From positions 1 to 64,000 of the forward strand of contig NZ_CANMRN010000012.1 in the NCBI RefSeq assembly GCF_947500265.1: a DNA stretch of 64,000 nucleotides. Reading direction: 5' to 3'. Source of the DNA: an uncultured Psychrobacter sp. (GTDB lineage: Bacteria > Pseudomonadota > Gammaproteobacteria > Pseudomonadales > Moraxellaceae). The notes under the pieces are model-generated. The model was not told where the DNA came from. It searched no databases and saw only the letters and a program-made list of their open reading frames with translations. The stretch's first letter is position 1. Every line of letters begins with the position of its first letter. The position numbers were made by a program, and so were the translations under genes. This document shows, piece after piece, positions 53,766-60,600 of the stretch.

Positions 53766-54518
53766 TTATACCAAAACAGGTGCAAATACGGCGCTCAATC
53801 CTAGCAGTACCAGCCCACGCTGTAGCCATAAGCTATCACTAAAGCGTTGCTGCAACTGCTGACTAACCAGCGTACCAACTGCATATAGCGCTAGCATCGT
53901 GACCATCATCCCTGCATAAAATCCTATCTGACCGCTCACACCAACATTCGCTGGTACTTCCATCGCGTGTGCCATGCCATGAAACACTGCCAAACCACCA
54001 AAACCAAACAATGACAGCTGCTGAATACTTGGCGTGCGTGCTGTATGAGTCTGCGCAGAGAATGCCTCTTGTCTGCTTTTTTGGCTCATCAAGACCATAG
54101 CCAATACGACCACCGACAGTGATATGGCCACTTCAATCAACCCAGATGATGCAGAAAACGCGATACCGCCAATTAGCACGCCAGCCGTGCCCAATATCGC
54201 ACCCAATGACAATCCTGCCGTCAATGACATCATGCCTAAGCGCTGCTTTTGCAGGCCATAAAACAACATGCCCATGCCGACTGCCAAAAACAGATGATCA
54301 AAGCCAGTCACTGGATGCATCAGTCCTGCTTGCAACGTACCTAACAACGATGGCGCTTGCGTGGTAGTCGAATGAATATGCCCTGAATGTGCTTGCGCCA
54401 ATGACGGTAGCATTAGTGACGTCATCATCACAGCCGAACCAGACACGATATGACGAGCTGAGAACGCTTGTGAAAAGCGAGAGTTTTCGATGTGAAGACC
54501 TTTTGTACACTGTGTCAT
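53766..54518 (-). CDS. ureJ: HupE/UreJ family nickel permease
   Basis: 250 residues. An N-terminal hydrophobic segment with AQA cleavage-like site is followed by AHSGHIHSTT, a histidine-containing start, then about six membrane helices. The family motif HPVTGFDHLFLAVGMGML is conserved, with a second histidine-bearing segment FGGLAVFHGMAHAMEVP. These proteins import nickel (or cobalt); here the last place in the urease operon suggests nickel supply for urease. AAGGAAA precedes ATG 54518. Confidence 0.9.
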   Translation of the reverse strand: MTQCTKGLHIENSRFSQAFSARHIVSGSAVMMTSLMLPSLAQAHSGHIHSTTTQAPSLLGTLQAGLMHPVTGFDHLFLAVGMGMLFYGLQKQRLGMMSLTAGLSLGAILGTAGVLIGGIAFSASSGLIEVAISLSVVVLAMVLMSQKSRQEAFSAQTHTARTPSIQQLSLFGFGGLAVFHGMAHAMEVPANVGVSGQIGFYAGMMVTMLALYAVGTLVSQQLQQRFSDSLWLQRGLVLLGLSAVFAPVLV

Positions 54519-54568: not shown

Positions 54569-55258
54569 TTAGGCAAGCATGCCATGTTCTTTGATAAAGG
54601 CGATAATCTCATTTAGCCCATCGCCTGTTTTCATATTGCTAAAGACAAAAGGTTTGTCGCCACGCATTTTTTTGGCATCGCGTTCCATCACCTCAAGCGA
54701 AGCACCAACCATTGGGGCAAGGTCAGTCTTATTGATAATCAACAAATCAGACTTGGTAATGCCGGGGCCACCTTTACGAGGTATCTTATCGCCTGCAGAG
54801 ACATCAATGACGTACAAGGTCAAATCAGACAGCTCTGGGCTAAATGTCGCGGCTAGATTGTCACCACCTGACTCAATGATAATCAACTCTAACCCTTCAA
54901 AAGTCGATTGTAGCTCAGCAATCGCAGTCAGATTAATAGAAGCATCTTCGCGAATAGCTGTATGCGGACAGCCGCCCGTCTCTACACCGCGGATACGCTC
55001 AGCAGGCATGGCATTATTGCGGGTCAAAAACTCTGAATCTTCTTTGGTATAGATGTCATTGGTCACCACCGCCATATTGACCGTATCACGCAGGTTTTGG
55101 CATAGCCTTAAAGTCAAAGCAGTTTTACCACTACCAACTGGCCCGCCAATACCAAGGCGTAAGCACGATAAGGCAGAAGACGGTTTCTGGCTGTTGCTAT
55201 TAGTCTGTACGTCTGATGCAGTGTGAGAGTTTTGTGGTTTAAGCGGAGTTAGAGACAT
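54569..55258 (-). CDS. ureG: Urease accessory GTPase UreG
   Basis: 229 residues. P-loop [12 protein letters not shown] at about 38-49, and [44 protein letters not shown] as in UreG proteins. It drives GTP-dependent delivery of nickel to apo-urease with UreD, UreE and UreF. The CPH nickel motif ([13 protein letters not shown]) is intact. A 27-residue N-terminal polar extension carries no His-rich tail, unlike some UreG. ATG at 55258 with TAGGAAA. 57 bases after ureF. Confidence 0.96.
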
Positions 55259-55315: not shown

Positions 55316-56110
55316 CTATGAGCGGAACAACCGACTGTATTGCTCCTCATGCATGCTTGAGAGAATAGCCAAATTGGGCAAATTATTCGAGATATTAAGC
55401 GATTCATAGAGGTCTTGGCATAGCTGCTGACAGTCCGACTCTTCACTATTACCTACAGTATTGGCCGTGTTTGTCGACATAACTAGAGCATCAAAGACAT
55501 GCTGTACGTCATCGCTTAGAGCATCGACCTGAGCACCCAAATCGCTTTGTAATTGCCACAGAATACGCTGACCTGCCATCTGTCCTAGCGGCACTGTCTT
55601 CACAGCAGCGAGCACCATGTTCTCTAATTGCGCAAATCCATAAGTAGTCATTGACTGCGCTAGTGGCAGCTGCCAATGCTGAGCAATATGAGCAAATAGC
55701 GGCAAAAATCCATCTTCAGGTATTTCGGCCGGTATGCCAAGACTCAGGACTTCGTTGAGCCAAGACACCATGGCTTGTGCCAACTGCTGCGACTCCAGTA
55801 CAAACTCTTTACTTTCTAGGCCAGCGTGATAATCATGTGCTAAATTTGCTGCTAGCGCTTCATGACCTTGGCTGAGTGCGCACATTATCAGCCCTAATAC
55901 AGGCAGCTCGTAGCCAATCACCGCAAGCGCTAGATAGTCCTGCATAAATGTAAGCGTACTAGCTTCATCAGAGACAACCCCTGACTCAATCGCTGACTCC
56001 ACACCTTGCGAATAGGTATAGCTACCAATCGGCAAATTGCTCGATGCCAGCATCAGTAGCTGTCCAAGTTGGGCAGATTGAGCAGGCTGAGCACTGGTAT
56101 CAACCATCAT
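55316..56110 (-). CDS. ureF: Urease accessory protein UreF
   Basis: 264 residues (Klebsiella UreF 224). It acts with UreD and UreG in nickel insertion and carbamylation. LMLASSNLPIGSYTYSQGVE at the start and a helical body with YHAGLESKEFVLESQQL are typical. Near the C-terminus, SSMHEEQYSRLFRS matches the family end. The ATG lies 11 bases inside the end of ureE, so the two overlap. An extra acidic, Thr/Asn-rich segment (about 210-235) is not usual. Confidence 0.93.
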   Translation of the reverse strand: MMVDTSAQPAQSAQLGQLLMLASSNLPIGSYTYSQGVESAIESGVVSDEASTLTFMQDYLALAVIGYELPVLGLIMCALSQGHEALAANLAHDYHAGLESKEFVLESQQLAQAMVSWLNEVLSLGIPAEIPEDGFLPLFAHIAQHWQLPLAQSMTTYGFAQLENMVLAAVKTVPLGQMAGQRILWQLQSDLGAQVDALSDDVQHVFDALVMSTNTANTVGNSEESDCQQLCQDLYESLNISNNLPNLAILSSMHEEQYSRLFRS

Positions 56111-56738
56111 TCGAACGACCTACAAGCGCATCATGATGACTATGGCTATGTCCGTGGCTGTGGCTTTCATCATGGCTATGGTCATGACTTTCCTTATGAC
56201 TATGAGAGTCACTATGCGAATGTGCATGTGAGTGAGAGTGGCCATGCGCATGCCCTTGGCCCGTTTGATAAGCGCCTGTCTCAGGCTCAAATGGCACTGA
56301 GGTAGACTCGATATGTAGACCGAGGTTTTCTAACATTTGTGCAAGTACATGATCATTTTCAAAATATAAGGCATAGCCTGCATCACCCTGATCAAAACTG
56401 TGGTCAAACATCAATGGCACATGACGGTTGCCCAAATGATAAGCGCCTTTCATTAGTAAAAAGTCATTAGCAGCAGTCACCTTAGTCACGGCTTGTGGCT
56501 TGGCGATGACTTGCATCAACTCCCCTGATTCATTGATAAGAACATCATCACCTTTTAAGACGCCTGTACGAGGCAGGTCAACACCAACTACCTCACCTGA
56601 AACAGTAATGGCTCTAAAGCGAGAATGCTGACGAGTATCAAAGTCTAACAGCAGATAATCATCGGCTTGATACTGTTCTGCCAATTGCGCTTTTTGGATA
56701 TCGCTAAGTGTACTTAAACGGGTATTAAATATTTTCAT
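56100..56738 (-). CDS. ureE: Urease accessory nickel-binding protein UreE
   Basis: 212 residues from ATG at 56738, because AGAGAAGA lies just ahead and the family start MKIFNTRLST is there; a longer frame from 56825 adds 29 residues. It stores and passes nickel to UreG. The peptide-binding N-domain runs to about 80 and the metal-binding domain to about 150, with GNRHVPLMF. The last 50 residues contain about 18 histidines in HS/HD/HG repeats, a nickel-binding tail like that of Klebsiella UreE. Overlaps ureF by 11 bases. Confidence 0.95.
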   Translation of the reverse strand: MKIFNTRLSTLSDIQKAQLAEQYQADDYLLLDFDTRQHSRFRAITVSGEVVGVDLPRTGVLKGDDVLINESGELMQVIAKPQAVTKVTAANDFLLMKGAYHLGNRHVPLMFDHSFDQGDAGYALYFENDHVLAQMLENLGLHIESTSVPFEPETGAYQTGQGHAHGHSHSHAHSHSDSHSHKESHDHSHDESHSHGHSHSHHDALVGRSNDG

Positions 56739-56904
56739 TATTCTTCTCTGGCTATTGTTGCTCAAACTATTGGTCAATAGTATTGATGGTAAAAGTGTTG
56801 GGAATAAAGACGCGATCTCACTCAAGAAACCAACTGACTATTGGCATACATGGTTTATGGCTCCCTGTCTGTCCTAGAGATCCTATAAACGTGCATCATA
56901 AGCT

Positions 56905-59094
56905 CTAAAATAAAAAGTAACGCTGTGCCATGGGTAGTACATCAGCTGGCTCACAGGTGAGTGTCTTACCATCAGCGCGTACTTCATAGGTCTCAGGATT
57001 GATATCCATATCTGGACAATAGCTGTTAAAGCGCATATCACTTTTACGAATTTTACGGATGCCGTGTACTGGCTGAATAACTTTGGTCAGCCCAAGCTGC
57101 TTATCTACTTGTTTGTCGATCGCCGCTTGCGACATAAAGGTAATGCTGGTCTGAGCAACCGATTTTGGATATGTAGCAAACATAGGACGATAATGCACAG
57201 GCTGAGGGGTGGGAATAGAGGCATTGATATCGCCCATTGGCACCGCAGCGATGAGTCCGCCTTTTATAACGCACTCAGGTTTTACCCCAAAAAACTTGGG
57301 CGACCATAGCACCATATCTGCCCATTTTCCCACTTCGATGGAGCCAACCATATCGCTGATACCGTGAGTAATCGCAGGGTTTATTGTATATTTTGCGATA
57401 TAACGTTTGATACGGAAGTTATCGTTGTCCGCGCTTTGGTCATAGTCTGTCAAAGTGATGTACTGTTGCTCATCTTCAATGATAGCCGTTGCATCTGGTG
57501 CTAGATGGCCACGTTGAACTTTCATTTTGTGCGCGGTTTGCCATGTACGGATGACTACTTCACCCACCCGCCCCATCGCTTGTGAATCACTACTCATCAT
57601 CGAGATTGCGCCCAAATCATGCAAGATATCTTCTGCGGCGATGGTTTCCTGACGAATACGGCTCTCAGCAAAGGCCACGTCTTCAGCAATAGCAGGACTC
57701 AGGTGATGACAAACCATCAGCATATCGAGATGCTCATCAATGGTATTGACGGTGTATGGTCGAGTTGGGTTGGTTGAAGATGGCAGCACATGCGACTCGC
57801 CAATAGCCTTTAGAATATCGGGCGCATGGCCACCGCCTGCCCCTTCAGTATGAAAAGTATGAATACAGCGGTTTTTAAAAGCAGCGAGCGTACTTTCGAG
57901 ATAGCCACTTTCATTTAAAGTATCGGTATGAATGGCCACTTGCACATCATAGTCGTCAGCGACACTCAAGCAATTATCGATGGCTTGCGGCGTTGTACCC
58001 CAATCTTCATGTAGTTTTAGCCCTACGGCACCTGCTTCTATTTGTTCAGCAATAGGTTCTGGTACACTCACATTACCTTTACCCAGTAGTCCAATATTCA
58101 TAGGGATACTATCAGTAGACTTTAGCATCGAGGCAATATGATACGCCCCCGGTGTACAGGTAGTGGCAAGCGTACCTTGAGCTGGCCCTGTACCGCCGCC
58201 TAGCATCGTCGTTACCCCTGACATAAGCGCCGTCTCGCATTGCTGAGGCGCGATAAAGTGGATATGACTATCGACGCCACCTGCTGTCAGGATTTTGCCT
58301 TCGCCAGAGATAATTTCGGTAGCTCCGCCAATAGGAATATCGATGGCGGGCTGGATATCAGGATTGCCCGCTTTGCCAATGGCACTGATACGACCATCTT
58401 TGATACCGATATCCGCTTTATAGATGCCTGTATAGTCAACGACCAATGCATTGGTAATAACTGTATCGGCAACTTCTGCGCCCAGTAATTGTCCTTGACC
58501 CATGCCATCACGGATGACTTTACCACCACCAAATTTGACTTCTTCACCTTTAATTTCAATAGGCTTGCTGCTGCTTTCACCACTTTGCGACGTATCCGCT
58601 TGGTCAACAGCTGTATCTTTATGACTGGTTAAATCCGCTTCAACCTGTAGCCAAAGCTCGGTATCGGCAAGACGGACTTTGTCACCTGTGTTAGGGCCAA
58701 AATGCTCAGCATAAATGCGACGACTGACTCGTTTTTGCGAAGTAGCAGTTGCCTTTTTATCAGTGGCTCTCTCTGATGTTTCGTCGGGATGAGCGGCGCC
58801 CATGACACGCCCAGCAAAACCATATACATCTTGCTTACCAGCGTATGCTACCAATTCGACTTCCCGCGATTGGCCCGGCTCAAAACGTACGGCGGTGCCA
58901 GAGATAATATTGAGACGAAACCCCCGAGTTTGCTCTCTGTCAAAACTCAAGGCATCATTGACTTCATAAAAGTGATAATGCGAGCCGATTTGGATAGGTC
59001 TATCACCAGTATTACTGACACTGATGGTCTGTACCTGTCGCCCTTGGTTTAAGATAATATCGCCATCTTGGATATGGTATTCGCCTGCTTGCAT
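56905..59094 (-). CDS. ureBC: Fused urease beta-alpha subunit (UreB-UreC)
   Basis: 729 residues in one frame. Residues 1-100 are a complete UreB ([34 protein letters not shown]), 101-121 a polar linker, and about 122-729 a complete UreC. Nickel and catalytic residues are all kept: His277 and His279 (DSHIHF), carbamylated Lys360 (GLKLHEDWG), His362, His389, His415 ([12 protein letters not shown]), His463 (CHHL) and Asp503 (SSDSQAMGR), each exactly 143 more than in Klebsiella UreC. An extra polar segment of about 26 residues (157-182) sits near the start of the alpha part. Ends in AQRYFLF as usual. Urea to ammonia and carbamate. ATG 59094 with AAGGCGG. No internal stop or alternative UreC start is needed. 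Confidence 0.95.
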
Positions 59095-59150: not shown

Positions 59151-59453
59151 TTACACGATGGGATTATGTACTGTGACCAGTTTGGTGCCATCAGGAAAGG
59201 TCGCCTCGATTTGCACTTCATCTACCATCTCTGCGACACCTTCCATGACATCATCAGCAGACAAATACGTAGCACCTTCACTCATCAATTCAGCAACTCT
59301 TTTACCATCTCGTGCGCCTTCCATCAGCAGCATACTGATATAAGCGATGGCTTCGGGATAATTGAGTTTGACACCGCGATTTTTGCGACGCTCAGCCACC
59401 ATACCAGCCGTAAATAGCATGAGTTTGTCTTTTTCTGTTGGGGTCAGGTGCAT
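59151..59453 (-). CDS. ureA: Urease gamma subunit
   Basis: 100 residues, the exact usual length. [20 protein letters not shown] and the [22 protein letters not shown] block are typical, as is VTVHNPIV at the end. It forms the third subunit of the bacterial urease trimer. ATG 59453 with AAGGAA. 56 bases before ureBC. Not fused here, unlike Helicobacter where gamma and beta are fused. Confidence 0.97.
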
Positions 59454-59571: not shown

Positions 59572-60600
59572 TTAGGTGTCCCAAATACGTGGACGACAAG
59601 GCTCAAGTTGCCACCAATGATCTCGCAAGACTTCTCTCAGCTGATAAAACGCTTCAAAACAACCACGTACATCTGAGCCGATGTAGCGGATATTGATCGC
59701 TTGGCAATTATGAGTGCAGTAGACAGGCAGTTGTGCTTGAGCAATGACTTGACGTAATGCTACGACAGTATTATCTAGATAGCGGGTCAATGATTGCTTG
59801 ATAGTTGCTTGGGCTGTTTCGGTCGATTGCATAGTCTGTGACGCGGAGAGTGCAAGATTGTCATGGACATCGCTTAAGCTTGGTACTGCCCAAAACGATC
59901 CATAAATATGCTGGTTCGCTAATCCTAAATTTGAGGTAAACCAGCGACTTTGTGCTGCCTGCGCCACTCGCTCAGCAACGATAACCTTGCCATCTCGGTA
60001 GATATTCAATCCAGTATGATAACGCCCTTGCAAAAACTGCTCGTCGTAAGCTTGTCGCCCAAATACGCTAATCTCCCATGTTAGTAGACTAGATGAATCT
60101 GTCAAATCGAAGCGACTCACTGCATGCATATTGGCTTCGTTATAAATGATACTCTCTTGCGGCAGCCATTCTAAACGGGTATGTACTGCGAGTTTGGCCT
60201 GTACATGTTGGCTTGCATAGGCAGCTATTTCATTTTGACCCATACTTTGATGAGCAACGTCGCTGCCTAAAGAAGATTTATGTTTTTGACTGACACTGTC
60301 CTTGCCGTACCATTTACCTGCCCCTGGTGTGGTGATAACAGTATGGCTACCACTATCTAAGTTTAGGTCTATGGTCAGCGTATCACCGCCTGCGATACCT
60401 GCTGGCGGGTATAACATCAGTATGTGACAAATACCCTGCTGTACGCTTGGCTCAGGATACAGAGCACGCTGTACCATCAAGGCACCCGTATGCTTACGAT
60501 GATAAAGCCGCGTTTTTGAGTTATCAGCCGTACCCTCTTTGGCCGTACTTGTACTGCTAACAGTGTCAAAGCTTAATGCTAAAGAAGAGGCCCAACTCAT
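59572..60600 (-). CDS. ureD: Urease accessory protein UreD
   Basis: 342 residues (Klebsiella UreD about 270). The scaffold that, with UreF and UreG, opens apo-urease to nickel. LMLYPPAGIAGGDTLTIDL with VITTPGAGKWYG and YNEANMHAVSRFDL are the conserved blocks; the end RPRIWDT is the usual. First gene of the operon ureD-A-BC-E-F-G-J. Polar extra segments rich in Ser and Thr account for the length. ATG at 60600 has no clear ribosome site. Confidence 0.93.
   Translation of the reverse strand: MSWASSLALSFDTVSSTSTAKEGTADNSKTRLYHRKHTGALMVQRALYPEPSVQQGICHILMLYPPAGIAGGDTLTIDLNLDSGSHTVITTPGAGKWYGKDSVSQKHKSSLGSDVAHQSMGQNEIAAYASQHVQAKLAVHTRLEWLPQESIIYNEANMHAVSRFDLTDSSSLLTWEISVFGRQAYDEQFLQGRYHTGLNIYRDGKVIVAERVAQAAQSRWFTSNLGLANQHIYGSFWAVPSLSDVHDNLALSASQTMQSTETAQATIKQSLTRYLDNTVVALRQVIAQAQLPVYCTHNCQAINIRYIGSDVRGCFEAFYQLREVLRDHWWQLEPCRPRIWDT

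Follow-up and report, generated by a model that had tools for sequence, protein, structure and literature searches.

A urease with a fused beta-alpha subunit and a separate gamma subunit in Psychrobacter and other bacteria

The window analysed here, a stretch of 64,000 nucleotides from an uncultured Psychrobacter sp., carries a gene, ureBC, that is a genuine fusion of the urease beta subunit (UreB) with the alpha subunit (UreC), and the gamma subunit (UreA) has a gene of its own. We put the probability that these genes encode a working nickel urease of two chains, a separate gamma and a fused beta-alpha, at about 0.84. The urease is well supported as a gene and probable as a protein, and would be a known enzyme in a chain arrangement not met for bacteria in the open-licence literature searched; the usual account has three chains in most bacteria, a gamma-beta fusion in Helicobacter, and one chain in plants and fungi.

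Gene organization

The ureBC frame is open for 729 codons from an ATG start. It lies within a minus-strand operon whose order is ureD, ureA, ureBC, ureE, ureF, ureG, hupE/ureJ, with ureD and ureA upstream of the fused gene and ureE, ureF and ureG downstream. The features are as follows.

53766..54518, minus strand: hupE/ureJ, probable nickel permease (PF04955, 2e-16; role inferred from the family)
54569..55258, minus strand: ureG, accessory GTPase gene (PF02492)
55316..56110, minus strand: ureF, accessory gene (PF01730)
56100..56825, minus strand: ureE, accessory gene with a histidine-rich tail (PF02814, PF05194; tail from the translation)
56905..59094, minus strand: ureBC, fusion of the urease beta and alpha genes, 729 aa, calculated mass 78.9 kDa (open frame, Pfam, NCBIfam)
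56905..58731, minus strand: UreC (alpha) part, residues 122-729 and the stop codon (Pfam, NCBIfam, alignment with Klebsiella UreC)
57439..57495, minus strand: insert 2 in UreC, residues 534-552, 19 residues (alignment with K. aerogenes UreC)
58549..58620, minus strand: insert 1 in UreC, residues 159-182, 24 residues, of a length that varies among relatives (gap in Klebsiella UreC)
58732..58794, minus strand: linker, residues about 101-121, without an internal start codon (Klebsiella alignment, start-codon scan)
58795..59094, minus strand: UreB (beta) part, residues about 1-100 (Pfam PF00699 at residues 4-99; NF009682 at 1-100)
59151..59453, minus strand: ureA, separate gamma subunit, 100 aa (PF00547, 1.3e-46; TIGR00193)
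59572..60600, minus strand: ureD, accessory gene (PF01774, 2e-38)

All three urease domains, alpha, beta and gamma, are encoded in the window according to Pfam and NCBIfam. On UreBC, Pfam places Urease_beta at residues 4-99 (6e-42), Urease_alpha at 122-262 (2.7e-44) and Amidohydro_1 at 268-616 (2.2e-73), and NCBIfam puts UreB at residues 1-100 and UreC at 121-729. An earlier sequence-only reading of this DNA had described a full UreB, a polar linker of 21 residues and a full UreC in one frame beside a separate gamma gene; the domain assignments agree with it, and ureA is indeed a gene of its own. The ureBC urease is the only one detected in the window genome. The UreE encoded downstream has a long histidine-rich C-terminal tail, and such tails are present in some other UreE proteins.

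Active site, inserts and structure model

Ten residues were tried in UreBC against the active-site positions of Klebsiella (His134, His136, Lys217, His219, His246, His272, Cys319, His320, Arg336 and Asp360), and all ten are correct at +143 from the Klebsiella numbering; they cover the nickel ligands, the position of the carbamylated lysine and the catalytic residues. The nickel ligands among these positions are also named in a published review (PMC3816311). The sequence-only reading had proposed a constant offset of 143, which holds for the ten active-site residues and changes after residue 533, at the second of two UreC inserts absent from that reading. The first insert, of 24 residues, is included in the offset.

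The lengths of both inserts were counted as residues between fixed points, within the family (Moraxellaceae) over 22 fused and 28 split representatives. Insert 2 is present in 22 of 22 fused representatives and 0 of 28 split ones: its region spans 28 residues in 21 of the fused genes and 35 in the other, against 9-14 residues in the split genes. Outside the family the region measures 13-22 residues in 12 of 154 split representatives, and the fused genes found there (8/8) have 3 residues at insert 1 and 9-14 at insert 2, that is, neither insert. Judged from these alignments, insert 2 accompanies the fusion in Moraxellaceae and is a marker of the family's entire fused clade. In 17 of the 22 fused family representatives insert 1 is longer than the 3 residues usual there (8-59 residues), and in the other 5 it is not; since only these 17 have the longer form, insert 1 would be a later gain or has been lost in part of the clade.

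A structure model of UreBC has a mean pLDDT of 76, with values below 50 at residues 88-115, 160-175 (insert 1) and 535-554 (insert 2), and its beta part rests on an alignment with four fused rows. The best Foldseek match to the model is jack bean urease, model residues 1 to 729 aligning with jack bean residues 132 to 839 (650-668 residues, 3.3-3.5 A), a match on which the possible presence of plant ureases in the AlphaFold training data bears.

Occurrence in Psychrobacter and Moraxellaceae

In a sample of 100 Psychrobacter genomes that includes the window genome, a urease match was found in 75 and none in 25. All 75 loci were read: UreB and UreC form one frame in 56 and are separate genes in 19. 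Two of the fused genes are interrupted, that of G058 (L143) by an in-frame stop within its UreB half and that of G059 (L150) by a stop close to the C-terminus. The family sample adds two fused and two split Psychrobacter genomes, which brings the genus to 58 fused and 21 split-only genomes. Across the Moraxellaceae sample (n=299), 147 genomes have a urease match, with 61 fused, 85 split and one carrying a fragment only, which stands outside the fused and split counts. The 61 fused genomes comprise 58 of Psychrobacter, two of a second genus (code g7) and one of a third (code g10); the 85 split genomes comprise 21 of Psychrobacter and 64 others. Because the frame is conserved across the genomes of the genus, the fusion is neither chance nor an indel. 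The sequence-only reading had suggested a search for UreB-UreC fusions across Moraxellaceae and other bacteria and had raised the worry of a missed frameshift; fusions are found in 61 family genomes and beyond, and a junction held open across dozens of genomes answers the worry.

Distribution and origins of the fusion

A tree was built by a quick IQ-TREE run over 626 columns of 110 rows, 30 of them fused and 80 split, with SH-aLRT support only and no plant row. In it the 22 fused family rows form one clade (99% SH-aLRT), sister to nine split family rows, eight of which belong to Acinetobacter or its genus code. Outside Moraxellaceae, where all fused loci were read directly, the fusion occurs in Neptuniibacter marinus (L012) and one genome of the same family (L235; 2/79 genomes there), in a metagenome bin of Oceanobacter (L024) and the family to which it belongs (5/44 genomes), in a bin of Arenicella (L023) and one genome of the same order (L265; 2/80 genomes), and in G1215 (L288), a lone genome from a different class. 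The AU test rejects a tree in which all fused rows form a single clade (p 4.07e-05), and likewise for the gamma set (p 4.95e-10); one clade of the Neptuniibacter and Oceanobacter types is not rejected (p 0.209), and the addition of the Arenicella type to that clade gives a borderline result (p 0.0405).

The tree requires five changes of state, and the starred branches force five. Two independent origins of the beta-alpha fusion are firm on this phylogeny and three to five are likely. Since the tree gives counts of changes only, gain and loss are not distinguished by it, and repeated loss from a single old fusion is formally possible. G1215 is left out as a firm third origin because it is one genome on a long branch that has kept a possible ureC start; it may still be making free UreC, and its beta-alpha frame could represent a fusion not yet completed.

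The wider surveys, which were samples searched with one profile built from fused proteins, with counts taken among the matches listed in overlapping tables and with room for a beta-alpha fusion with a very long linker to escape, gave an uninterrupted beta-alpha match in 0 of about 106 non-family genomes with a full UreC in the order sample, 0 of about 78 in that from the class and 1 of about 97 (G1215) in that from the phylum, and no fusion in 6 Bacillota genomes with a full UreC or in about 57 cyanobacterial genomes, a few fragments included. Long open frames hinted at more fusions, even at some of 842 aa in Acinetobacter; on reading they gave separate genes. Likewise, when 18 long-frame genomes outside the family were fetched, none had a beta-alpha frame (L315 has no beta on its stretch). 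A search of plasmid records with the UreBC protein gave 168 matches, all at 80% identity or less; among the best 30 of these, 10 are unannotated and the others are annotated as separate subunits or as only one.

Split ureases and decay in the same group

Psychrobacter also holds 22 split urease loci (L157-L165, L292-L304). Those placed in the tree fall away from the fused clade, with one group beside Halomonas-type rows. By their position the split Psychrobacter ureases look acquired, which suggests that the native fused urease was replaced by transfer in those genomes. G058 carries both forms, the decayed fused ureBC (L143) and a split urease with three subunit genes (L163), and here the native copy is perhaps decaying beside an acquired one; no second urease was found in the other fused Psychrobacter genomes. 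The fused form is dispensable, since 25 of the 100 sampled genomes are without urease, 19 have the split form only, and the fused copy of G058 is decaying.

Acinetobacter offers further variants of the locus. In its plasmid matches H1-H5 and H11 the annotation places a GNAT acetyltransferase gene between ureB and ureC, and Acinetobacter loci L112-L117 and L123 have a gap of about 420-450 bases at the same place. For A. lwoffii an N-acetyltransferase gene at this position is already in print (PMC8472584). One genome of the Acinetobacter group (G221) has, besides its split urease (L119), a second, distant urease (L118) in which gamma and beta share one frame.

The linker, the lost ureC start and alternative readings

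For a set of 27 close genes that contains the window's own, pN/pS comes to 0.04 for UreB, 0.018-0.03 for the parts of UreC, 0.30 for insert 1, 0.16 for insert 2 and 0.49 for the linker, bounded for this purpose as residues 100-127 of the window gene. In a second set of 20 genes the values are 0.13 in UreB, 0.04-0.07 in UreC, 0.36 in insert 1, 0.27 in insert 2 and 0.36 in the linker. The UreB and UreC domains are under strong purifying selection (0.02-0.13), and the linker behaves like loosely constrained but coding sequence (0.36-0.49). It is polar with basic residues, and in Psychrobacter its length spreads widely, from 19 to 54 residues by one measure. The free end of beta also varies in some Psychrobacter fused genes; about 28-44 residues, depending on the choice of start, stand ahead of the UreB domain in L129, L149 and L153-L155.

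To locate ureC starts, the stretch from 4 to 22 codons ahead of the conserved UreC core was scanned for ATG, GTG or TTG, and the upstream match to a ribosome site was scored. Among 212 representative loci the core motif was recognised in 138 (109 split, 29 fused), and 74 were dropped. A match of at least 4 bases was found for 98 of 109 split ureC genes versus 3 of 29 fused genes (L128, L130, L288), and in 14 of the 29 fused genes, including that of the window, the scored stretch is free of start codons. Of the three fused genes with a start-like codon so matched, two are family rows, L128 keeping a GTG with a 5-base match and L130 having an 8-base match at the end of UreB; the third, in G1215 (L288), retains an ATG with a 4-base match near the UreC core. 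In the Neptuniibacter and Oceanobacter-type fused genes a Met is left near the old start, with matches of only 0-3 bases. Over the whole window junction the sole in-frame ATG, GTG or TTG is that of the conserved UreB Met98, with a 3-base match. The ureC start is lost in the window gene; the description of the junction as stop-free, with a linker lacking a ribosome site, had come from the sequence-only reading and is borne out by a linker scan that shows no start codon.

Several accounts of the junction have to be set against a fused chain that stays whole. The window junction itself is taken from an assembled sequence, and a sequencing or assembly error could have erased the stop and the start between two normal genes; the same open junction, however, is seen in 58 Psychrobacter loci, in 3 genomes of 2 other family genera and in further families, and the linker lengths differ among genomes, yet all stay in frame, which makes such an error hardly credible. 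Internal initiation that yields free UreC alongside the fused chain is very unlikely, too. It would be favoured by the Met codons left in the Neptuniibacter and Oceanobacter-type genes and by the matched ATG and GTG of L288 and L128, but those Met codons are poorly matched and the window linker offers no start codon from which a free UreC could begin.

Cutting of the fused chain in its linker after translation, by which the mature enzyme would be an ordinary three-chain urease, is improbable, if less so than internal initiation. Its appeal lies in a linker that is variable, polar and of low confidence in the model, preceding a core whose upstream residues are, by eye, fairly alike in the family (a serine, then a lysine, then basic residues) and might form a common site of cutting. 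In the Arenicella-type genes, however, this pattern is less marked or missing, the linker length differs widely within the genus, and solved structures of plant urease show beta and alpha as parts of a single chain. An uncut beta-alpha chain working with a separate gamma is the reading we prefer.

Function and significance

UreBC is likely to be active, because its active site is intact, it is under strong purifying selection and its set of accessory genes is full. At the level of the genus, activity is further supported by PMC8546975, which describes the type strains of Psychrobacter as consistently positive for urease, together with the finding of no second urease in the fused genomes other than G058; the 25 of 100 genomes with no urease match are a poor fit to that description.

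On the two-chain reading, UreBC would be made as a single chain, its beta domain sitting on alpha as in the plant single-chain urease and the linker forming a loose surface tether. The particle would be (gamma + beta-alpha)3, and nickel would be loaded as in other ureases, by UreD, UreF, UreG and UreE. Most likely the join came about when an ancestor of the family's fused genes, already parted from the Acinetobacter urease line, lost the ureB stop and the ureC ribosome site. Fusion would set the beta:alpha ratio at 1:1. In earlier Klebsiella work beta was reportedly suggested to move during activation; a natural beta-alpha tether would restrict such movement at one end only. Cryo-EM of the Klebsiella and Helicobacter complexes (PMC10121161) places UreD on alpha, in an area flanked by beta/gamma, with a tunnel opened.

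A beta-alpha fusion that appears to have arisen more than once supplies the missing two-chain layout, and suggests that either subunit junction can be closed on the route to a single-chain urease. Natural beta-alpha enzymes could be used to test how far beta must move in nickel loading. A more ambitious proposal is that gamma plus beta-alpha is a third chain plan of bacterial urease, independent at least twice and perhaps five times, with insert 2 of the family altering the movement of beta or the docking of the nickel-loading proteins; taken whole it is doubtful, and if true, the fused enzymes would be a natural test of whether beta has to loosen from alpha in activation. On the practical side, gene calls, primers and subunit counts that presume separate ureB and ureC can mislead in genomes with the fused form.

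Comparison with known ureases

Bacterial ureases are described as two or three polypeptides, with Helicobacter as the gamma-beta case, in PMC3816311, and gamma-beta fusions in other bacteria too are described in PMC2492869. In the open-licence literature searched, as far as its accessible text goes, no bacterial urease fusion of beta and alpha only was found.

The three-chain urease of Klebsiella has the same domains and active site (UreBC residues 122-729 match K. aerogenes UreC at E 5.8e-259), but its UreB and UreC are separate chains and its UreC has neither insert. Ureases of the Helicobacter, or ure(AB)C, type likewise consist of two chains with a subunit fusion; they join gamma to beta, whereas the window urease joins beta to alpha and leaves gamma free, in its own gene ureA (PMC3816311, PMC2492869). 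The single-chain urease of plants (jack bean, pigeon pea) holds beta and alpha in one chain, as UreBC does, but also joins gamma, and the separate gamma gene sets the window urease apart from the plant and fungal single-chain form. In a tree without plant rows the bacterial beta-alpha fusions lie among split bacterial ureases, the closest split relatives of the family's fused genes being those of Acinetobacter, with ureB and ureC as separate genes. For such enzymes we propose the class 'beta-alpha fused bacterial urease', defined by one frame for UreB and UreC, the lack of an internal ureC start (less certain for L128, L130 and L288, with their matched start-like codons) and a separate ureA. 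The window urease has all three features.
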